20,824 nt of DNA, from assembly GCA_934512105.1 (NCBI GenBank), contig CAKSWQ010000038.1, positions 1 to 20,824 on the forward strand, written 5' to 3'. How positions within the stretch are numbered: position 1 is the first letter of the stretch; each line of letters starts with the position of its first letter. A model generated the notes under the pieces. That model saw only the letters and a program-made list of their open reading frames with translations, was not told the DNA's origin and did not search any database. This document shows positions 1 through 11,121 of the stretch, one piece after another. The position numbers were made by a program, and so were the translations under genes. This DNA comes from an uncultured Faecalibacterium sp. Lineage in GTDB: Bacteria > Bacillota > Clostridia > Oscillospirales > Ruminococcaceae.

Positions 1-72
1 CACCTTCTTTGACTCTGTTATATCACTTTTTCTCAAAAGTTAAAGCACTCGATGCTGTATTATTGAAAATTG

Positions 73-102
73 CTATACTTGCGCCTTAAAATTTGATTTC
101 AT
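73..102 (-). other. Nine-codon leader-like ORF or gene remnant
   Basis: A well-spaced ribosome site (AAAAAGGAG, 8 nt) precedes an ATG that opens only nine codons (MKSNFKAQV) before TAG. It lies 47 nt past the stop of the gene at 150-497, on the same strand. No continuation is evident in the same frame to the window edge. It may be the start of a gene broken by a nonsense or frameshift change, or a leader peptide. The ribosome site is seen; the rest is guesswork. Confidence 0.25.
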
Positions 103-149
103 AATAGTTGCTCCTTTTTAGTTGGAATTATCAATTTGTGCCTAAATTT

Positions 150-497
150 TTACTTTTTGTGGTCAGGACGTAAATGATTTCCTCGAAGAATTTGCTTTCG
201 GAGCTTCTTCCAACGTCCGTAGGCAATGTGCTGCTCCAACTGAACAATGCCAGCAAGTGCAATGCCATCCAGAATTCCCTGTAAGTAGAGAGCGTGCTTT
301 TCGGCGGCTTCTTGTTCAGCCAGTTCGTTCAGATAGCTGCGCAGGCTGTCGTTCTGCTCTTTGGGGAGAGACACCAGAACATCTTCGGCCTTGCGGCTGG
401 TTTCGGTTTCCTGCCAAGGTGGAAGATTGGATAAAGCGTCTTCCATGATTTGGTTGAGTACGGTGTCGAGCAGATGGTCAAAGTGTAAATGCTTCAT
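150..497 (-). CDS. Small helical hypothetical protein of the mobile region
   Basis: A 115-aa protein of unknown function. The start is supported by GGAGG six nt upstream of the ATG. The sequence is hydrophilic and strongly helical, with acidic stretches in the middle (about residues 37-66) and a basic C-terminus rich in Lys, Arg and His. No signal peptide, membrane segment or catalytic motif is visible. The layout (helical, an acidic middle, then an Ala/Gly-rich helix around residues 68-90) recalls small DUF6809-like proteins common in Clostridia mobile elements, but this is only a resemblance. It is divergent from the rep genes across a 432-nt AT-rich spacer, which suggests it belongs to the same element. 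Confidence 0.7.
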   Translation of the reverse strand: MKHLHFDHLLDTVLNQIMEDALSNLPPWQETETSRKAEDVLVSLPKEQNDSLRSYLNELAEQEAAEKHALYLQGILDGIALAGIVQLEQHIAYGRWKKLRKQILRGNHLRPDHKK

Positions 498-929
498 GGT
501 GAACCTCCAATACTATAATTGCGTGTAAAATAAAAAGACACACAAATTCGCTGAAATTTGCGTGTCTGACGGTTTGATATGCGTGTTTAACAAAGCGGGA
601 AATTATCCCAAATGTCGAAACTACTTTTTGAAGAATTGCAGTAGGCGATTCTGTTTTTTGCAAAAGCTGAGGGATTTATAAGAATACAAAAGTTACTTTC
701 GGAAAGTGGATTTCTCTATAAGAGATAGAAGGGCACTCTAATGAATGGTAGTTAGTTATTATGATGATATATCGTAAAGATATAAGTTGATTAAATGAAA
801 TATATATTTATAAAAATAATTTAATAAATTAAACAATAGATTAAATTGGATTATTTATATTGATTGTTGTTGAATTAAATTTTAATTGGTTCATAACATC
901 ATGATAAATTATGAAAGGAGACCATTTTT
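498..929. other. AT-rich divergent intergenic region, possible origin or control region
   Basis: This 432-nt gene-free stretch separates the leftward hypothetical gene from the rightward rep genes. Positions 750-910 are extremely AT-rich. Positions 537-566 form an imperfect hairpin (12-nt arms GACACACAAATT and AATTTGCGTGTC, 6-nt loop). The heptamer TGCGTGT occurs three times in direct orientation, at 520-526, 559-565 and 580-586. Hairpins, short direct repeats and AT-rich DNA beside a rep gene are what a replication origin or a Rep autoregulation site would show, but no nick-site consensus was recognised. The leftward ORF at 478-663 is judged spurious. Confidence 0.4.
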
Positions 930-2081
930 ATGACTATGGCTAAAAAGTTACCTATATTTTATCCCTCGATTCATACATTTGAGCTTCACGGGAAGTATCA
1001 TAGTTACGCTATTATGACGGATTTATTTGAAAGAATGAAGGAGCTGATAGCAGAAGGAAAATATCACCGCACGAAAAATAAGAAGAAAAAGGATAAGCAG
1101 AGAATCGAAAAGCAAAAACGTTACTGCTATACGAAAAAAGGTGGTGGCTTAAAAGTTGAGTTGAATAAATCCACAGGACATGGAGATTGGCAAATAATCT
1201 TATCTGGTATAAATCTGGCGCGGATTGCTGGAAATCCATCGAGATTGGCATTGGCAGATTTATCTCCCGATGGCTTTAATTATCAGATGCAGCATTTCTT
1301 CATGGAATTAGAGCAACTGGGGCTTTTGAACTGGGAAGGAAGAATCGAATGGATTCTTTACAGAGCCGATGTTACGCAGGATTTTTATGTGAAATGCGAC
1401 CCGGTGCTTCCGATAAAACTGGCTCGATATGCAGGTGAGGCGATGCCTTATGGGAAAGGAACTGAGAAGCACTATGATAAGCACAACGAGATGCGAAGCG
1501 GCAGATTTGAAAAAGAGGAATATGATTTTGAGATCTATGATAAGCATAAAGCCTTATTAACTGATATAAGAAATGGGTGTCCGGTTTCGGAGGGTGATCT
1601 GGAAAAATCGAGAAATCTGATTCGATGCGAGATACAGCTCAAACGAAAATTCCTATTAGAGTTCGAAAAGCAAACATTCCAAATTGAAAATGGTCAGGAT
1701 AGGAAGCTTGAACTGCAAGATATACCGTATGCTTTATGGAAGCTTGGCGAACGTGCGCCGGGAATCTTATATGATAAGACAGAAAAGCTGTTTGGCACTG
1801 ATCCGTGGTATCATGCACAAAGCGCATTGAAAGTGCTGGAATCAAGCAACTTGGACGAATCAACGACTGCGTTAGTTAAAAATTACATTGTATCAGTGAA
1901 TGACGAAGAGCAATACAGTTCATATACTGCATACCAGGAAGCGAAAATAAAAAGAGTATTGAAGCAGTTGGCAATCAACCTTGTAATCGTTCCTGACAAA
2001 ATTTTGAATGAACGCCAGTTTGCACGGCTACCATTTGATTCTTTTTGCTCAAGGGTTCAGAACTGTGAGAAAAATCTATGA
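930..2081 (+). CDS. Rep_trans-like rolling-circle replication initiator
   Basis: A 383-aa protein with the signature of rolling-circle initiators of the Rep_trans / replication initiation factor type. Seen features: a basic N-terminal third with a Lys-rich run at about residues 48-70; the motif R145-A-D147-V-T-Q-D151 before a short strand, matching the metal-binding Arg/Asp block of the family; and E201-I-Y203-D-K205, resembling the R-x-Y-D-K block that holds the nicking tyrosine in pT181-like initiators. Such proteins nick one strand at an origin hairpin and stay covalently bound. The ATG has AAAGGAG nine nt upstream. A paralogue follows 287 nt downstream. The low GC content differs sharply from the genes right of 6,260 and suggests acquired DNA. 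The family is inferred from motifs; a MobT-like relaxase-related role is possible. Confidence 0.75.
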   Translation: MTMAKKLPIFYPSIHTFELHGKYHSYAIMTDLFERMKELIAEGKYHRTKNKKKKDKQRIEKQKRYCYTKKGGGLKVELNKSTGHGDWQIILSGINLARIAGNPSRLALADLSPDGFNYQMQHFFMELEQLGLLNWEGRIEWILYRADVTQDFYVKCDPVLPIKLARYAGEAMPYGKGTEKHYDKHNEMRSGRFEKEEYDFEIYDKHKALLTDIRNGCPVSEGDLEKSRNLIRCEIQLKRKFLLEFEKQTFQIENGQDRKLELQDIPYALWKLGERAPGILYDKTEKLFGTDPWYHAQSALKVLESSNLDESTTALVKNYIVSVNDEEQYSSYTAYQEAKIKRVLKQLAINLVIVPDKILNERQFARLPFDSFCSRVQNCEKNL

Positions 2082-2226
2082 CCCTTTCTATGTTCCGCAG
2101 CAGCCGGCTCTACCGAATGCGCACCATTACTAGGAAATAATATATATTTCATAGGAAAATCAATGCGATTCTGCGAAATTTATTAGCAAAACAACAAAAG
2201 TTGAGGGGGCGGGAAGCCTAATGTGG

Positions 2227-2244
2227 AGGGTTATCATATACCCT
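2227..2244. repeat. Short inverted repeat between the rep paralogues
   Basis: AGGGT (2227-2231) and ACCCT (2240-2244) flank an 8-nt AT-rich loop. It lies just after a G-rich stretch (2202-2230) in the 287-nt spacer between the two rep genes. A small hairpin next to rep could be a double-strand origin or part of a terminator. No nick-site consensus was recognised. The rest of 2082-2359 is AT-rich, with a TATACT at 2332-2337 that could be a -10 box for the second rep gene although no good -35 box is correctly spaced. Confidence 0.3.
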
Positions 2245-2368
2245 TTGACGCTTTTTAGCCCATTTTAGACTAGAAAAGTAGTAGATATTGCTGTTTGATA
2301 AAAGTTGAAAAAATACAAAAATAATAAACGATATACTGCACTAAATTAAAACGAAAAGGATGATTGAT

Positions 2369-3514
2369 ATGTTGAAAAATAATATAAATCCTACGATTGG
2401 AAAATTTGATTTACAATGTACGATTTACAAAACAGACTGGAGAATACTGAATGGGCTGAACAAAATGTGCGATGAAGGAAGATATGTCTGCACAAAAAAT
2501 GGTTATGAGTTCCAGAAAAGCGATAGGAGTTTGATTGTTACATACTGGGTGGAATGGAAAAAAGACCGCACTATCATAAAAATCAAGAATATTGATTTGC
2601 CGCTGTTGCAGGGGAATTGGTCGAAACTGGCTCTGACAGATTTAGCAGAAAGAAGTATCAAGAATGGGGCAGAGACACTCTTGAAAGAATTGGAGGATCT
2701 TGGCATCCTGTGCTTCAGAAGATACCAATGGAGTATAAATAAACTTGCGCTGGTACAAGATTTTTATACGGAAGAGCCGTCACATACTTTCATGAAAACC
2801 GTAAAATATTACACAGAATATATGGAATATGGCACGAAAGGTACTGCTTGCTCCAAAAAGGATATAGGGACGATGCCTTTGAATGCAATAAGTTTTGGAG
2901 ATGGAAAGTTTGAACTGGTGGATAAAGAACGTGAGTTGGAGGTTCTATCAAGAACTACGGGAACAATTCCAGAAGCAATTTTGCATCGTGCGGCACATCG
3001 GTTACGATATACAGTCAATCTGGGATGGAAAGAACTGCGTGCTCTGGAAGAATGGAATCCAGAATTACGCTCAATCAGTCTGAATATGGACGTGCAAGAT
3101 GGTCTGATTTCAAAATACCTTATGGAGATAAGAGATAAAATTCCGCAGATTATAATGCAGAAGACAGAAGCGTACTTTGGACATAACCCTTGGATCGTGG
3201 CTAGTATGGTGCAAGAAAAGATGAAACGGACGGAAGAAGAGGAAAACATTAGATTTGGAACAGAAGTATGGGCCGGGATGAAACACTATCTGGAAAAAGT
3301 TAAAGAACTAGAAATACCAGAAGTTCTACGGAATTGGTCGATGGATAATATGGTATTTGATGATTATATGAAAGAAAATGTAAAAAAGACATTGTGGAGG
3401 ATGGGATTGAACGCAGTTGTGATACCTGATGAAATCTTTGAATCCGAAGAACTCCAATACTTCCCATGTCCTAACATTAAGGCAAGGATTTATCGGACAG
3501 AATGCGTCAAATGA
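2369..3514 (+). CDS. Divergent Rep paralogue, probably catalytically inactive
   Basis: A 381-aa protein homologous along its whole length to the Rep protein just upstream. Shared blocks include GN-S-LAL-DL (near residue 82), VQDFY (residues 129-133), a G-NPW block in the C-terminal half and a conserved end (N-VVIPDEI against N-VIVPDKI). The paralogue lacks the signature residues: the Arg-x-Asp block has become K125-L-A-L, and the Tyr of the Y-D-K block has become V184. The second in-frame ATG (2369) is preferred because AAAGGA lies eight nt upstream, while the ATG at 2360 overlaps that site. It may act as a partner, copy-number regulator or origin-binding protein without nicking activity. That role is inference. 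Confidence 0.7.
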   Translation: MLKNNINPTIGKFDLQCTIYKTDWRILNGLNKMCDEGRYVCTKNGYEFQKSDRSLIVTYWVEWKKDRTIIKIKNIDLPLLQGNWSKLALTDLAERSIKNGAETLLKELEDLGILCFRRYQWSINKLALVQDFYTEEPSHTFMKTVKYYTEYMEYGTKGTACSKKDIGTMPLNAISFGDGKFELVDKERELEVLSRTTGTIPEAILHRAAHRLRYTVNLGWKELRALEEWNPELRSISLNMDVQDGLISKYLMEIRDKIPQIIMQKTEAYFGHNPWIVASMVQEKMKRTEEEENIRFGTEVWAGMKHYLEKVKELEIPEVLRNWSMDNMVFDDYMKENVKKTLWRMGLNAVVIPDEIFESEELQYFPCPNIKARIYRTECVK

Positions 3515-3578
3515 TGAAAAGACGTACTGATATGAACAACATTATAGTAAATTGAACTTATGAATGGGAGTGATTGTA

Positions 3579-3752
3579 ATGCTAGACGAATATCCTATTG
3601 TTCTAAATTTCAAGCAAGTACGAGAAATTTTACATATCAGTAAGAATCTTCTGCTAAATCTCTTGAATATGGGTGAAATTCCCGGATACAGAGTGGGAAA
3701 TCTCTGGCGAGTGAACAGAGAAGATTTAATTGAGTACATGAAACAACGCTAA
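3579..3752 (+). CDS. Excisionase-like helix-turn-helix DNA-binding protein
   Basis: A 57-aa protein made of essentially one winged helix-turn-helix of the MerR/excisionase type: a strand, L-x-V-REIL-HISKN recognition-helix start, then the wing G-x-IPGYRVGN-WRV, then the helix NREDLIEYM. The ATG at 3579 is chosen because GGGAG sits eight nt upstream; the in-frame ATG at 3564 overlaps that site. Proteins of this family act as excisionases that direct a recombinase, or as small transcription factors. It follows the two rep genes by 64 nt on the same strand, an order seen in integrative elements, where an integrase gene usually comes next. No integrase is found here, which is notable. Confidence 0.75.
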   Translation: MLDEYPIVLNFKQVREILHISKNLLLNLLNMGEIPGYRVGNLWRVNREDLIEYMKQR

Positions 3753-3878
3753 AAGGCGAACGAGCAACCGACAGCAGGCGGTGCAGTCAAAGTTGAAGAA
3801 CCAACGATGGCTGCGCTGCCTGTTTGTTAGATGTTTTGTATCTGCTAAAAAATCCTTTTATTTCGGACAGAAATCAGC

Positions 3879-3884
3879 TATAAT
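3879..3884 (+). promoter_or_regulatory. Probable -10 box for the ATPase-nuclease operon
   Basis: A perfect TATAAT lies 54 nt before the ATPase start codon. The -35 region is weak (TTTATT about 16 nt upstream), so this promoter may be poor or regulated. The hexamer is seen; promoter use is inferred. Confidence 0.45.
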
Positions 3885-3938
3885 AAGAGATAAAGTGGAA
3901 GAGAATTCCGAAATCACACGCTGAGAGGGACTTTACCT

Positions 3939-5000
3939 ATGAAAATCAAGAGCCTTGCCTTAGAGAATTTTATGATTTTCGATTCTGTTGATGTGGAGTG
4001 GTCTTCGGGCATCAATGTGATTTTAGGCGATAATAGTACTGGCAAGACCACGTTGTTGAAAGCTTTGTATGCGCTGGTAAAGCCGTACAGCCGAAAAGAC
4101 TTCCCCAAATGCACACTGCCGCAGCAGGAAGATATGATCGTCAATAAGATGGTTGGTGTTTTTCGTCCTGATGAGGGGAAAATTGGACGCATGGCAAGCC
4201 GCAAGCGTGGTGCATCGAAGACAACGCAGATGAAGGTCTGCATGGCTGAAGGCGATATAATCAATGTGTCGTTCGGAAGCCGTAAGGAAAATCATGCTGA
4301 CGTGTCCATTCAGGCAGCGGAGAAAGAGAAGCCGTTTGAACCTGTCTACCTGCCGCCTAAAGAGATGATTTCGGCAACAGAACATTTCCAGAGTCTGTAT
4401 GAGGAGTATCATATTGACTTTGAAGAAATGTACTATGACCTCACCAAATTGCTGGACAAGCCGCTGAAAAAGGGCGCATATACCAGCGAGCAGAACGAAG
4501 TTCTCTCAAAATTTGAGGAAAGCATGAAGGGTAAGGTTGTTCAGAAGGACAAGAAGTTCTACCTGAATGTAGAAGGCGAAGGCTCTTTTGAAATGGGCCT
4601 GCTGTCCGAGGGCTATAAAAAGCTTGCAACAATCGTTTACCTGATTCAGTCTGGCAGTCTTAGCAAAGGCTCGATTCTGTTCTGGGATGAGCCTGAAACC
4701 AATATGAATCCAAAGATGGTGGAGCCTATTGCGCAGGCATTGGGAGCATTGGCTCGTGCAGGAGTTCAGGTCTTTGTTACGACCCATGATTATTTTACCA
4801 TGCAGAGCTTTAACCTGATGGCAAAATATCCACAAGGTAAGCCTGTCGATGTGCAGTTCATCTCGTTGTACCGTGACGAGGACGGAAAAATTGCGATGGA
4901 GACAGGAAAAGAACTGGCCGACCTTGACCATAATTCGATTATGGAAGAGTTTGACGAGCTGTACAATCGGGAACAGGATTTGATTTATGGTACTAACTGA
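3939..5000 (+). CDS. AAA/ABC-type ATPase of a two-gene putative defence module
   Basis: A 353-aa SMC/ABC-class ATPase of the AAA_15/AAA_21 or OLD-like kind. Seen motifs: N-terminal KSLALENFMIF strand; Walker A GDNSTGKTT at residues 30-38; ABC-like signature LLSEG at 221-225; Walker B ILFWDEPE at 246-252 with the D-E pair 250-251; and the switch His in TTHD at 280-283. The region between Walker A and the signature (about residues 55-215) is a variable helical insertion. No membrane segments are present, so it is cytoplasmic. The ribosome site GAGAGGGA is eight nt upstream. The stop overlaps the start of the downstream nuclease-like gene by 14 nt, implying coupled translation and a joint complex. 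ATPases of this type paired with nucleases commonly sense phage or plasmid DNA. A RecF-like repair role is less likely given the context. Confidence 0.85.
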   Translation: MKIKSLALENFMIFDSVDVEWSSGINVILGDNSTGKTTLLKALYALVKPYSRKDFPKCTLPQQEDMIVNKMVGVFRPDEGKIGRMASRKRGASKTTQMKVCMAEGDIINVSFGSRKENHADVSIQAAEKEKPFEPVYLPPKEMISATEHFQSLYEEYHIDFEEMYYDLTKLLDKPLKKGAYTSEQNEVLSKFEESMKGKVVQKDKKFYLNVEGEGSFEMGLLSEGYKKLATIVYLIQSGSLSKGSILFWDEPETNMNPKMVEPIAQALGALARAGVQVFVTTHDYFTMQSFNLMAKYPQGKPVDVQFISLYRDEDGKIAMETGKELADLDHNSIMEEFDELYNREQDLIYGTN

Positions 5001-5586
5001 AGGAAAACTGCAATTTACGTTTCCGGGTGAAAAGGCCATCAAATTTGATGATACCGAATTTTATCGGAAACGGTTCAATAAGCTGTCAGGCGCAAAGGGT
5101 GTGGACTTCATCTGCGATACGGATGATTTTCTGATGCTGCTGGAGGTCAAGGATTGCCTTGGCAATGAGGCGGAGAACCGTTGGAGAGTGGCAGTAGACA
5201 ATACCAAAGTAGACACTTCACCAACGTCAGTTGATACGGAGGGCAGAGAAAGCTTTGATAATGAAGTAGCGCATAAGGTGGCTATGACGATCTCCTGTCT
5301 GCTTGGCGCGCAGACCTTCGGTGAAAACCGTCCATTCCAGCAGGAAGAACTGATTCCGTATGCAAAGGCATTGGAAAATGAGAAAATTGCGCAGCGTAAT
5401 AAGAATGTTTTTGTTGTCCTGCTGCTGGAAGGTGACTTTCAATCTGGCACCCGAACCAAGAAAATGAACATGGACAGAATCCAGCTCAGCATTGAAAAGA
5501 AATTGAAATGGCTGAATTGTAAGGTTTCGGTCGTGGATGCCAGTACATACAGGAGCAATCTCTTTGAAGTGGAACGGATAACCTGA
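4987..5586 (+). CDS. PD-(D/E)XK-like nuclease partner of the ATPase
   Basis: A 199-aa protein whose start overlaps the ATPase by 14 nt. Residues 38-55 show G-V-D40, a hydrophobic stretch, then L-L-E53-V-K55, preceded by a helix containing E24. This spacing (E, D, E-x-K) is the classic PD-(D/E)XK nuclease core. A second conserved-looking block, ESFDNEVAHKVAM (88-100), could be the helix after the core and may contact the ATPase. The strand VFVVLLLEGD (141-150) resembles the later core strand of the fold. There is no signal peptide or helix-turn-helix. I do not recognise it as a member of a named defence family; the nuclease assignment rests on the motif. It would be the effector, with the ATPase as sensor. 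A terminator lies about 150 nt downstream. Confidence 0.75.
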   Translation: MVLTEGKLQFTFPGEKAIKFDDTEFYRKRFNKLSGAKGVDFICDTDDFLMLLEVKDCLGNEAENRWRVAVDNTKVDTSPTSVDTEGRESFDNEVAHKVAMTISCLLGAQTFGENRPFQQEELIPYAKALENEKIAQRNKNVFVVLLLEGDFQSGTRTKKMNMDRIQLSIEKKLKWLNCKVSVVDASTYRSNLFEVERIT

Positions 5587-5739
5587 AAGGACACCTTATT
5601 ATAATAGGAAGCACATCTGTTGAGCAAGAATGACAGAAATGAACGCATTTCCATCCATCACCCTCAGCAGCTCAGGCTGCAATCAAGAACCCTCGCAAGG
5701 TTTTGCGTGAGCGCCCCCAAAAGCACAAATAAAGCAAAC

Positions 5740-5780
5740 AAACCGCCCCGGTTTCCGCAACAGGAAGCCGGGGTGGTTTT
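5740..5780 (+). terminator. Terminator downstream of the ATPase-nuclease pair
   Basis: A 17-bp stem with a few G-U pairs (arms at 5740-5756 and 5763-5779, 6-nt loop GCAACA) ends in TTTT. A-rich flanks on the left side make it potentially bidirectional. It is the first strong terminator after the nuclease gene. Confidence 0.7.
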
Positions 5781-5854
5781 GTATGCAGGAGACCGGAGAG
5801 CAAAGGCGGTTCTTCCGACCCTACGCTTTCTTGCATTTCACAGAAAAATGTGCA

Positions 5855-5907
5855 AACAAAAAGCAGGCAGTGTCGTGGAAAGGAGGAGGAAAGCGACACT
5901 GCCTGCT
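5855..5907 (-). terminator. Strong hairpin terminator on the minus strand
   Basis: Perfect 14-bp arms AGCAGGCAGTGTCG (5862-5875) and CGACACTGCCTGCT (5894-5907) surround an 18-nt loop. On the minus strand the stem is followed by TTTTTGTTTG. No protein gene lies directly upstream on that strand, because metH already has its own terminator at 6204-6243. This hairpin therefore probably ends a non-coding transcript or is part of a repeat. Confidence 0.65.
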
Positions 5908-6203
5908 GTATAGGAACCCCTGAACATTGCGGCTTGGTCAGGAGGGATTTGGTAGTCTGTCCGCCGTTCTGGCTATTGCCTCGCATAGAAACGGGAGACA
6001 GTTTTTTATGGGCCTGCTGTGCGCCGCTGCTGCGGCCGCACCCGCAGGGAAATGTGCCTGCATGGGCATTTGCGGGGAGAACCTTTCGGAGGTTATGGGG
6101 GATGTCCGTTCCGTTCTCCCTGAGTGCACCCTTATTATGCCAGACAATCGTGGCAATTCTTTGTGGTAATTTTGAACAGTTTGCAAATAAATACCCTGCC
6201 CAT

Positions 6204-6261: not shown

Positions 6262-8685
6262 TTACACCCCAAAGAACTCCTTGGCAATGTCGGCGCTGCG
6301 CTTGGCGTCCTTTGCGTACCAGTCCGCGCCGATCTTTTCGGCGTATTCCGGGGTCAGCACGGCACCGCCTACCATGATCTTGCAGTCCAGCTGTGCCGCG
6401 TGCAGGGCGGCGATGGTCTCCTCCATGCTTTTCAGGGTGGTGGTCATCAGGGCCGAAAGGCCTACCAGATGCACGTCCTTTTCCCGCACGGTGTCCACTA
6501 CCGTCTCCACCGGCACGTCCCGGCCAAGGTCCAGCACCTCAAAGCCGTAGTTTTCCAGAATGACCCGGACGATGTTCTTGCCAATGTCGTGCACATCGCC
6601 CTTGACGGTGGCAAGGACGATGCGTCCCTTGCTGGCGCTGCCCTCGCCCTTTTGGGCAATGGCGGTCTTGATCTCCTCAAAGGCGCTCTGGGCGGCGCTG
6701 GCGGCCTGCAGCAGCTGCGGCAGGAACAGGGTGCCTTTTTCGTACTTGGCACCCACGACGTCCAAAGCGGGGATCAAGGCTTCGTCTACCACCTCCAGCG
6801 GTTGCTTTTCCACCAGCAGGGCGCGGGTATGGGCGGCGGCGTCACCCTTCAAGCCCTTTTCCACCGCTTTCATCAGGGCGGCGTAGGGGCCGGTAAGCTC
6901 CGCTTCGGCGGCACTGGCGGCAGGCGCGGCCTTTGCAGCCTGTGCCAGCGCGGTGCTGGCGGGCACGCGGTCGGCAAAGCGCTCAATGTACTTTGTGCTC
7001 TGCTTGTCCCGGTTGGTCAGCACGTTGTAGGCGTATACCGCCGCCATCATCTCCTCGCTGGAGGGGTTCATGATGGCAAGGTCCAGCCCGGCGTACATCG
7101 CCATGGTCAGGAAGGTGGTGTTCAGGTAGGTACGGCAGGGCAGACCAAAGCTGATGTTGGACACGCCCAGCACAGTGCGCACTCCCAGCTCCTTTTTGCA
7201 GGCTTCCAGTGCCTGCACCGTGGCAAGCACATCCTCCTGCTGGGCGCTGGCGGTCAGGGTAAGGCAGTCGATGTAGATATCCTCCCGGGGGATGCCTGCT
7301 GCCAGCGCCGCCTCGGTGATGCGGCGGGCAATGGCCACACGGTCTGCGGCCTTGGGCTGGATGCCTTTTTCGTCGATGGCAAGGCCCACGATGGCAGCGC
7401 CGTACTTTTTGCACAGCGGCAGGATGGCAGCAAGCTTTTCCGGCTCGCCGTTGGTGGAGTTGACGATGGGCTTGCCGTTGTACACCCGCAGACCCCGCGC
7501 CAGCGCCTCCACATTGGAGGAATCCAGCTGCAAGGGCAGGCTGGTCACGCTTTGCAGCGCCTTGACCACCTGCTCCATCAGCACCGGCTCATCCACGCCG
7601 GGTGCGCCTACGTTCACGTCCAGAATTTGCGCCCCGGCCTCTGCCTGACTGACGGCCTGTTCCAGCACATAGTTCATGTCGCCCTCCCGCAGTGCCTGCT
7701 GGAAGCGCTTTTTGCCGGTGGGGTTGATGCGCTCGCCCACCACCGTGATGCCGTCCACCGTGACCGTGTCCACCGGGGAGCACAGCACCGAGGGCATCCG
7801 GTGCGCGGGACGCCCCGGGGTGCAGCCTGCAAAGGTGCCGTTGAGCAGCTTGATGAACTCCGGGGTGGTGCCGCAGCAGCCGCCGGCGGCAAACAGGTGC
7901 AGCTCCCGGTAGGGCTTCATCTGTAAAGCGAACAGCTGCGGGGTGATGTCGTAGCCGCTGCCGTCCGCCCGGGGCAGACCGGCGTTGGGCTTGACGAACA
8001 CCGGGAAGTTGCCGGGCACGGCTTCTGCCAGCCGTTTTGCCATGGGGAAGATCTCCTTGGGGCCCAGCGAGCAGTTGATGCCCACGGCGTCGGCACCCAA
8101 GCCCCGGGCGGTGGCGGCAAAGCTTTCCACCGTGCAGCCGGTAAAGGTGCGCCCGCCCGCTTCAAAGCTCATGCTGGCCAGAATGGGCAGATGGGTGTTT
8201 TCCTTGGCAGCCAGCAGGGCGGCTTTCAGCTCGTACAGGTCAGTGTAGGTCTCAAAAAAGATCAGGTCTGCCCCGGCGGCTTCGCCCGCCTTGACGATGC
8301 GGGCATACTCGGCCACAGCATCCTCAAAGGCCAGCGTTCCGCTGGGCTCCAGCAGCTCGCCCAGCGGGCCCACGTCCAGCGCGGTCAGCGCACCGTAGGG
8401 CGCACAGGCACGCTTGCAGTTTTCAATGCCTGCGGTGATGATCTGCTCCAGCGTGTAGGCGCTGCCCGCCAGCTTGTGGGCAGAAGCGCCGAAAGTGTTG
8501 GCGTTGACGATGCGGCTGCCGGCCGCAGCGTACTGCGCATGGATGCCCTCGATGAGCGCCGGGTCGGTGATGTTCAGCTCCTCCGGGCGTGCGCCCAGCT
8601 TGAGCCCGGCAGCTTGCAGCATGGTGCCCATGCCGCCGTCCAGCAGGATGGTATTGCTCTGCTTGAAAAGTTCATTCACTTGCAC
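6262..8685 (-). CDS. metH: Cobalamin-dependent methionine synthase without activation domain
   Basis: This 807-aa enzyme transfers a methyl group from 5-methyltetrahydrofolate to homocysteine through methylcobalamin, making methionine in the cytoplasm. Domains seen: a homocysteine S-methyltransferase barrel (about 5-300) with zinc ligands C205 and C270-C271; a pterin-binding barrel (about 312-565); an Ala-rich linker (575-598); and a cobalamin cap plus binding domain (600-807) with the D697-V-H-D-I-G702 motif, whose His699 is the lower cobalt ligand. The C-terminal S-adenosylmethionine activation domain of the long E. coli enzyme is absent; a separate protein encoded just upstream supplies it. 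GTG at 8685 is chosen because AGAGGGG sits about eight nt upstream, giving a 14-nt overlap with the upstream gene. No cobalamin riboswitch was recognised. Confidence 0.95.
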   Translation of the reverse strand: MQVNELFKQSNTILLDGGMGTMLQAAGLKLGARPEELNITDPALIEGIHAQYAAAGSRIVNANTFGASAHKLAGSAYTLEQIITAGIENCKRACAPYGALTALDVGPLGELLEPSGTLAFEDAVAEYARIVKAGEAAGADLIFFETYTDLYELKAALLAAKENTHLPILASMSFEAGGRTFTGCTVESFAATARGLGADAVGINCSLGPKEIFPMAKRLAEAVPGNFPVFVKPNAGLPRADGSGYDITPQLFALQMKPYRELHLFAAGGCCGTTPEFIKLLNGTFAGCTPGRPAHRMPSVLCSPVDTVTVDGITVVGERINPTGKKRFQQALREGDMNYVLEQAVSQAEAGAQILDVNVGAPGVDEPVLMEQVVKALQSVTSLPLQLDSSNVEALARGLRVYNGKPIVNSTNGEPEKLAAILPLCKKYGAAIVGLAIDEKGIQPKAADRVAIARRITEAALAAGIPREDIYIDCLTLTASAQQEDVLATVQALEACKKELGVRTVLGVSNISFGLPCRTYLNTTFLTMAMYAGLDLAIMNPSSEEMMAAVYAYNVLTNRDKQSTKYIERFADRVPASTALAQAAKAAPAASAAEAELTGPYAALMKAVEKGLKGDAAAHTRALLVEKQPLEVVDEALIPALDVVGAKYEKGTLFLPQLLQAASAAQSAFEEIKTAIAQKGEGSASKGRIVLATVKGDVHDIGKNIVRVILENYGFEVLDLGRDVPVETVVDTVREKDVHLVGLSALMTTTLKSMEETIAALHAAQLDCKIMVGGAVLTPEYAEKIGADWYAKDAKRSADIAKEFFGV

Positions 8686-9361
8686 AGGTCTTTCCCCTCT
8701 TTCTGTATTCGCAGCGGGTGCGCAGCACACAATGGCCGCACCCGGCCAGATGTCCCTTTACCGGGTGGTCGCTGACTCCCAGCAGGGCGGTCACGCTCTT
8801 GCGCGGGGTCATCAGGTTGGTGTCGGTGACGCATAGTCCGGCCTTGCGCGCGGTGTCCAGCGCCGCTGCCACCAGCGGCTGCACCGCGATGTCCCAATCG
8901 CCGTAGCCGGGCGAAAAGCGCCCGGTCAGATACTTTCCCTCAGTCGCCGCCCACTGGCGCAGCTGCGCCTCGGCAGCATCGGCGGTCTGCTCGGCCAGTG
9001 CGCTGCCCAAGGCATCGGAGGCTACCCCGGCGGCAATGTCGCCCACGCCCGCCCGGCGGATCTGGGCATCCACCCCGGGCCCCAGCGTCACCGCCAGCAG
9101 AATGGCCTGCTCGCAGCCAGCCAGATGCTTGTGCACGTCCTCGCCGGGCAGAAGCCCGGCTTCGGTCAGGGCAGGGACATCTGCCAGCAGCCACACCGCC
9201 CGGGGCGTCGCCGCCGCCAGCAGCGGCACCGCGCAGTTTTGCAGCAGTGCCAGCGTGGCAGCGTCCGGCTCGCCGTGCGCGCCGAAATACCGCGCCGCCT
9301 GTGCCAGATCTGCCGCCTGCGGCTTTTCCAATGCCAGCGGGCGTGGCACACCGATCGCCAT
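8672..9361 (-). CDS. Stand-alone methionine synthase activation domain protein
   Basis: A 229-aa protein of the vitamin B12-dependent methionine synthase activation family, which in E. coli is the last domain of MetH. It binds S-adenosylmethionine for reductive remethylation of inactivated cob(II)alamin. Seen: the R148-F-S-P-G-Y-G-D-W block typical of the AdoMet site, then TNLMTPRKSVTALLG (181-195), and a C-terminal cysteine cluster (C208, C211, C217, C226) as in the short clostridial form, perhaps for metal or redox binding. The start at 9361 has GGAGGT eight nt upstream and a good promoter 41 nt before it; the open frame continuing to 9616 runs through the promoter and is rejected. It overlaps metH by 14 nt, so both are made together. 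Confidence 0.92.
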   Translation of the reverse strand: MAIGVPRPLALEKPQAADLAQAARYFGAHGEPDAATLALLQNCAVPLLAAATPRAVWLLADVPALTEAGLLPGEDVHKHLAGCEQAILLAVTLGPGVDAQIRRAGVGDIAAGVASDALGSALAEQTADAAEAQLRQWAATEGKYLTGRFSPGYGDWDIAVQPLVAAALDTARKAGLCVTDTNLMTPRKSVTALLGVSDHPVKGHLAGCGHCVLRTRCEYRKRGKTCASE

Positions 9362-10511: not shown

Positions 10512-10579
10512 ATGCTGCGCAGTCGGGATTTCTATCTACGCCCCATACAAGGGGCGACTATTCATGCTGCACAGTCAGG
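10512..10579. repeat. Duplicated 16-nt tail flanking a small hairpin
   Basis: ATGCTGCGCAGTCGGG (10512-10527) and ATGCTGCACAGTCAGG (10564-10579) differ at two positions and lie 52 nt apart. Between them is a hairpin, CGCCCC (10539-10544) with GGGGCG (10551-10556). Read on the minus strand, both copies encode PDCAA followed by a stop codon; the right copy is the actual end of the YgiT-like gene. Confidence 0.6.
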
Positions 10580-10792
10580 GAAGTTCACAACAGTGATTTC
10601 GGCCACGGCCTTTTCGACCGTCTGCAAGATGTGCTCTATCTTCTCCACCGTGTCAGCTGACAGAACGACCTCGCCGCACTGTTCGCACTTCAGGCAAGGC
10701 ACGTTCTTGATGACCACAACACAGTTCTTGAGTTGCACCGTGTGAATGGTCGTGCTGGGCTTCATTTCGCCCTTGCAAAAAAAGCAAGTCAT
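10562..10792 (-). CDS. YgiT/MqsA-type zinc-finger antitoxin
   Basis: A 76-aa protein with the N-terminal zinc finger of MqsA/YgiT antitoxins: CFFC near the start and CLKCEQCGE about 30 residues later give the paired CxxC ligands, followed by VVLSADTVEKIE. The C-terminal DNA-binding helix-turn-helix of full-length MqsA is missing, so it probably binds the toxin only. The second ATG (10792) is chosen because AAAGGGG lies seven nt upstream; the first ATG (10798) is almost on top of that site and would overlap the upstream gene by 4 nt. It is the third gene of a three-gene operon with a DUF4258 protein. The tail of the gene is partly duplicated downstream. Confidence 0.85.
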   Translation of the reverse strand: MTCFFCKGEMKPSTTIHTVQLKNCVVVIKNVPCLKCEQCGEVVLSADTVEKIEHILQTVEKAVAEITVVNFPDCAA

Positions 10793-10794
10793 AA

Positions 10795-11121
10795 TCATTC
10801 CCCTTTCTTCTTTCGTTCAGTATACGTTGCGTTCCAGTGGTCGAGATCAGGCCAATAGGCCGTCAGAATCCACAGAGCGTCCTCATGAATGCCGCAGACA
10901 ACGTGCAGCCAGCGGCCTGCCAGATTGACCCCTAACACCAGACAGGACGGACACCGGTAATCATTCGGGCGGTATTCGATGATCTTCCCGCTCTGGATAG
11001 CCTGCCGGATGTCTGCCAGCAAAATGCCGCGTTCATAAAGCCGGGCTTGTGAATGGGCTGTCAGGAAGATTTGCCCGCTGAGGGATAGTGTGCGCAGGTT
11101 CTCTATTGTCAATTCCATCAT
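10795..11121 (-). CDS. DUF4258 protein, probable type II toxin
   Basis: A 108-aa protein of the DUF4258 family, small RelE/MqsR-like proteins that are commonly paired with YgiT-type zinc-finger proteins and thought to be mRNA-cleaving toxins. Seen: the L-x-AHSQARLYERGI segment, IRQAIQSGKIIEYRPND, and the strands LVLGVNLAGRWLHVVCGI and LWILTAYWPD; the order is typical of the family. His and Arg in AHSQARLYERG would be the candidate catalytic or substrate residues (inference). The start codon overlaps the upstream gene's stop as ATGA, and the end abuts the downstream antitoxin, so the three genes are one operon. Confidence 0.85.
   Translation of the reverse strand: MMELTIENLRTLSLSGQIFLTAHSQARLYERGILLADIRQAIQSGKIIEYRPNDYRCPSCLVLGVNLAGRWLHVVCGIHEDALWILTAYWPDLDHWNATYTERKKKGE

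Follow-up and report, generated by a model that had tools for sequence, protein, structure and literature searches.

Do an ATPase gene and a small nuclease-like gene that overlap in the genome of an uncultured Faecalibacterium sp. form a new defence system? The window analysed here is contig CAKSWQ010000038.1 of assembly GCA_934512105.1, at its full length of 20,824 nucleotides (nt). An earlier note had placed in it an ATPase open reading frame (ORF) overlapping by 14 nt an ORF of 199 amino acids (aa), and had taken the pair for an undescribed ATPase/restriction-like nuclease module. Both ORFs were found where they had been placed, on the + strand and with the 14-nt overlap (Table 1). Judged by its profile matches, the pair belongs, as a stand-alone copy, to the catalogued candidate defence system HEC-02 and is not an undescribed system. 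The ATPase matched the PADLOC model PDLC04213 (HEC-02) with 383.4 bits (1-333 of 337) and the nuclease matched PDLC04228 (HEC-02B) with 248.4 bits and an E-value of 1.3e-74 (1-196 of 199); both matches extended over nearly the full length, and the gene order was that of HEC-02. That both genes should match profiles of a named system had been set beforehand as the refuting test, and this was what was found. The best match of the ATPase outside HEC-02 was AriA (79.2 bits), all seven PADLOC families that matched the nuclease at E <= 10 were HEC-02 families, and DUF6661 was the sole Pfam match of the nuclease (177.7 bits, cut-off 27). The A and B labels of two PADLOC models seem to be swapped relative to the other HEC-02 models: PDLC04146, named HEC-02B (344 positions), matched the ATPase and PDLC04145, named HEC-02A (170 positions), matched the nuclease.

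The published record also contradicted the undescribed status. Passages of PMC12839542 describe BREX and related loci, in 594 taxa, where OLD-ABC ATPases are paired with nucleases of the HNH, PD-(D/E)XK or PIN kind, cite earlier reports of such coupling and propose these dyads as back-up effectors of BREX; the pairing of these domain types had therefore already been described. On both grounds, the label of an undescribed system was rejected. According to excerpts of PMC12988326 and PMC10855318, HEC stands for Hma-embedded candidate, and the source cited in PMC12988326 is a 2024 preprint of Payne and colleagues. A passage of PMC12988326 attributes antiviral activity to several HECs including HEC-06, and HEC-02 is not named in that passage. 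Literature searches for 'HEC-02', with other spellings and supplements outside their range, retrieved only an unrelated nano-silver study, and no paper was found for 'DUF6661'. No demonstrated anti-phage activity of HEC-02 was seen in these searches, the source preprint being outside their reach. Altogether, the pair is well conserved and probably functional in defence, and it is part of a catalogued candidate system.

The ATPase presented the complete set of motifs claimed in the earlier note, namely Walker A (GDNSTGKT, 30-37), a signature-like motif (LLSEGYKK, 221-228), Walker B (ILFWDEP, 246-252) and the switch histidine H283. When the window protein was aligned with 11 locus proteins and with 24 matches taken from the 120 listed out of 889, G30, N32, G35, K36, G225, K228, D250 and E251 were invariant in all 36 sequences, and H283 was kept in 35. 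The predicted model was of the SMC/Rad50/PtuA type, with a head equally close to SMC/Rad50 and to PtuA and without a long coiled coil. Two of the aligned proteins (P0066 and P0069, alignment A2) were similar to the window protein as far as the Walker B region and, from there on, to other branches of HEC-02, a mosaic pattern that suggests recombination or assembly chimaeras.

In the nuclease, D40, E53 and K55 (D40...E53-x-K55) were invariant in 40 out of 40 aligned sequences (the window protein and 39 of 60 matches), and so were E5, D21, D91, E93, K97 and E148. The pattern first proposed had also included E24, and this part did not stand: position 24 was occupied by E in only 11 of the 40 sequences (K in 6, R in 5, D in 4, others in the rest), with E5 and D21 invariant instead, and E24 was rejected as a catalytic residue. 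In the AF2 model (pLDDT 92.1, pTM 0.90), D40 was located immediately ahead of strand 41-44, while E53 and K55 lay within strand 48-56. The nuclease thus shows the D...E-x-K motif, placed around two adjacent strands of the core, by which the PD-(D/E)XK superfamily is recognised. The VIA rows for the nuclease included several PD-(D/E)XK enzymes, bearing in mind that they cover the listed families and that the absence of a family is uninformative; a Foldseek search with the model led nowhere. What was retained of the earlier proposal is an ABC-type ATPase paired with a PD-(D/E)XK-like protein, the two probably acting in defence.

Searching genomes with the nuclease yielded 37 loci, of which 34 carried the ATPase directly upstream (in pieces in L004, L011, L026 and L027, and at a contig edge in L024). 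As for the remaining three, L021 begins 98 nt from a contig end. In L036 and L037 the nuclease match is short and partial, and no nuclease ORF was recognised; a remnant of the ATPase lies just upstream in L037, and L036 has no more than a weak match to it at a distance of 880 nt. The reverse search, with the ATPase, gave 12 loci, two of them (L068 and L070) in the genomes of L016 and L007, respectively, and in 11 out of 12 a small ORF with the (D/E)...ExK pattern followed directly. The profile built from the nuclease alignment A1 missed the small ExK partner in five loci (L067 and L074-L077), and the three partners tested matched other HEC-02 models; in L073 the ATPase was followed by a broken partner remnant. 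The pairing is thus conserved. ATPase and nuclease distances were also correlated (r 0.94 in 29 complete pairs, six incomplete pairs having been dropped; none of 2000 permutations was as high), and the correlation was 0.85 in the 22 pairs left after removal of the proteobacterial loci, values to which shared host ancestry could contribute. The closest named locus in the nuclease search (L001) belonged to an uncultured Subdoligranulum. DUF6661 was detected in none of 61 related genomes, a result that does not prove its absence there because 14 control genomes also gave none. The ATPase was found at E <= 1e-60 in one of 391 genomes of the class. Viral contigs gave 36 pattern matches and no relative, and PLSDB plasmids gave no nuclease match at E <= 1e-3. 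The phage-collection record MT839135 holds the pair, with a nuclease 48% identical and the ATPase upstream; being an 'UNVERIFIED', unannotated fecal contig, it is no proof of phage carriage.

Septu, PARIS and Gabija were rejected as family labels by the PADLOC and Pfam matches of the window proteins, and the observation that the pair fits none of their effectors was confirmed, since no HNH, Toprim or helicase partner was present. Septu (PtuA/PtuB) uses an HNH nuclease, whereas the window partner is PD-(D/E)XK-like and was matched by no PtuB profile. PARIS (AriA/AriB) shares with the window a small ABC ATPase and a nuclease encoded by a separate gene, as reflected in the AriA match, but passages of PMC10568477 and PMC12839542 describe AriB as a Toprim protein and the window partner had neither an AriB nor a Toprim match. 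Gabija differs in that no Toprim family was found among the Pfam matches of the 353-aa ATPase, and none of ten other window proteins, including the nearest neighbours of the pair, matched a PADLOC model at E <= 0.001; HmaA, HmaB and HmaC were likewise not among them. With the OLD-ABC/PD-(D/E)XK restriction endonuclease dyads described in parts of PMC12839542, the window shares the pairing of domain types, and their arrangement recurs in the relatives L012 and L023; the window copy lies outside a BREX locus, and the likeness is drawn at the level of domain types, not of the supplementary families. Compared with HEC-02 itself, the window copy is free-standing, on what is probably a mobile element, and its nuclease represents the DUF6661 branch.

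We consider it likely that the window carries a mobile-element-borne, stand-alone HEC-02 that works in the manner of Septu, with an ABC ATPase as the sensor and gatekeeper of a PD-(D/E)XK nuclease. The ATPase would form an ATP-dependent, PtuA-like oligomer that keeps the nuclease inactive until a phage-derived cue alters its ATP state. The nuclease, then released or activated, would cut nucleic acid, which could be phage DNA, host DNA or tRNA, and infection would be stopped directly or via growth arrest. By analogy, this working plan would be that of Septu and PARIS with another nuclease fold. To our knowledge, no solved Septu- or PARIS-type assembly contains the fold of the DUF6661 nuclease. 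Excerpts of PMC12839542 and PMC13096335 state, respectively, that AriB cuts host tRNA after Ocr sensing and that Septu cuts tRNA-Tyr.

The neighbours of the relatives bear on what the ATPase might sense. For 35 loci, the two nearest ORFs of at least 100 aa on each side were collected (128 proteins, 112 scanned together and 16 separately). Hma or BREX-type genes were mapped beside the pair in six of the 35, the others not having been mapped individually. The order was HmaA-HmaB-ATPase-nuclease-HmaC in L034, where a relative sits between HmaB and HmaC in a further likeness to HEC-02; HmaA and HmaB in L031, and HmaB in L029, were directly upstream of the pair. Orders of the BREX type were BrxB-BrxC-pair-PglX in L012, with an internal stop in the nuclease frame, and PglX-PglZ-pair-DrmD in L023, and L018 had BrxA and BrxC downstream. 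In the joint PADLOC scan of 112 neighbours (E <= 1e-30, no random-locus control), 60 families were matched, each by two proteins at most; among the 25 families listed were BrxA and PDC-M33A (two proteins each), HmaB, HmaC, PglZ, BrxB, PtuB, Cas1 and HerA. Three locus scans of proteins picked by size or likely identity gave 4 out of 8, 9 out of 10 and 4 out of 10 PADLOC matches.

These operons raise the alternative that the pair acts as a back-up: it would sense when a phage inhibits a co-resident restriction-type system (Hma, BREX) and respond by arresting the cell, as PARIS does on Ocr, with the stand-alone copy guarding systems elsewhere in the host. The short gaps that separate the pair from HmaB in L031 and L034 (8 and 12 nt) and from BrxC in L012 (29 nt) speak for it, together with the back-up role proposed in the passages of PMC12839542 cited above, while the low share of loci with such genes, their lack beside the window copy and the possibility that embedding is only defence-island clustering leave this alternative doubtful. 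In a more specific form, which we hold to be rather unlikely, HEC-02 would be a mobile guard module whose ATPase senses phage-encoded inhibitors of restriction-type systems, and not phage parts as such, with the DUF6661 nuclease as cell-arresting effector; this would explain why the pair occurs both inside Hma/BREX operons and travelling alone.

Table 1. Features of the window at and around the HEC-02 pair
Feature	Coordinates	Strand	Remarks
383-aa gene, possibly carrier replication protein	930..2081	+	39 homologues, one with precomputed PF05144
384-aa relative of the gene at 930..2081	2360..3514	+	25% identity over 311 aa, E 3e-23
HTH_17 / excisionase-family DNA-binding protein, 62 aa	3564..3752	+	PF12728 E 1e-11; TIGR01764 38.4 bits (cut-off 28.8)
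ABC-type ATPase (AAA_15/AAA_21), 353 aa; HEC-02 ATPase subunit	3939..5000	+	
PD-(D/E)XK-like protein, 199 aa, Pfam DUF6661 (PF20366); HEC-02 nuclease subunit	4987..5586	+	
Probable right junction of element; metH-side homology to related genomes starts	5667..5708	.	Overlaps repeat 5667-5780

A mobile element probably carries the pair as cargo, and the excisionase-family gene upstream is probably part of that element. Two related genes do lie where plasmid-like rep genes had been reported, but the name 'rep' is weakly supported: the pair of roughly 384-aa genes had no direct Pfam match, the best PHROG match was a replication protein at an E-value of only 0.11, and PF05144, which we take to be Phage_CRI, a replication protein, was assigned to a single homologue. 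The GC content was 40% for positions 1-5586 and 64% for 6262-8730, which encodes methionine synthase (metH). In three genomes of the nearest genus compared, the metH site was collinear with the window onward from 5708 (L060), 5690 (L061) and 5667 (L062), and a fourth (L063) was rearranged, with homology from 6259 and an inverted 5846-6191 piece. Beyond the junction, L060 carried a Bunzi-like gene that matched BnzB (402 bits), a match to PDC-M09A (177 bits), two GTPase-like genes and, farther on, a gene related to that at 930-2081 of the window (L060:3751-19901). Seven out of eight L060 proteins matched PADLOC at E <= 0.001, strongly only BnzB and PDC-M09A, and neither of two L061 proteins did. 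The metH flank is therefore a variable site, and one other genome was shown to carry defence-like cargo there. By eye, the approximately 110-bp stretch at 5667-5780 ends in a terminator-like hairpin, and it recurs many times in the nearest genus compared, mostly at about 73-89% identity; the left end of the window (1-78) matched four genomes of that genus away from the metH site. At L060:10684-12225 (- strand), a 318-aa P-loop-like protein without Pfam match lies beside a DUF4869 protein, possibly another ATPase-plus-partner cargo. Elsewhere in the window (10562-11121, - strand), a DUF4258 protein (84.9 bits) adjoins a weakly YokU/MqsA-antitoxin-like protein (below cut-off), and the two could be a toxin-antitoxin (TA) pair.

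The position of the pair beside replication-like and excisionase-like genes would also suit a module for maintenance of, or addiction to, the carrier, in which the ATPase restrains a toxin nuclease and phage defence is a by-product, and Pfam describes AAA_21 as a putative AbiEii toxin of a Type IV TA system. This is improbable, given that relatives recur in Hma operons and in the unrelated BREX-type defence operons instead of being bound to one carrier, and that no PLSDB plasmid matched the nuclease. Less probable still is that the pair serves the element in DNA repair or replication, as the Rad50-like head of the ATPase might suggest; this is very improbable in view of the lack of a long coiled coil in the model, the patchy distribution and the recurrent embedding in defence operons.

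As a stand-alone HEC-02, the window pair is ordinary as a discovery and useful as a test case. It gives the database names HEC-02 and DUF6661 concrete form as two paired genes with a predicted active site, and it shows that a family named for its embedding in Hma operons also occurs by itself, on what is probably a mobile element. If the gating mechanism were true, it would support the idea of a common sensor chassis, the PtuA/OLD-type ATPase, to which unrelated nucleases have been fitted.
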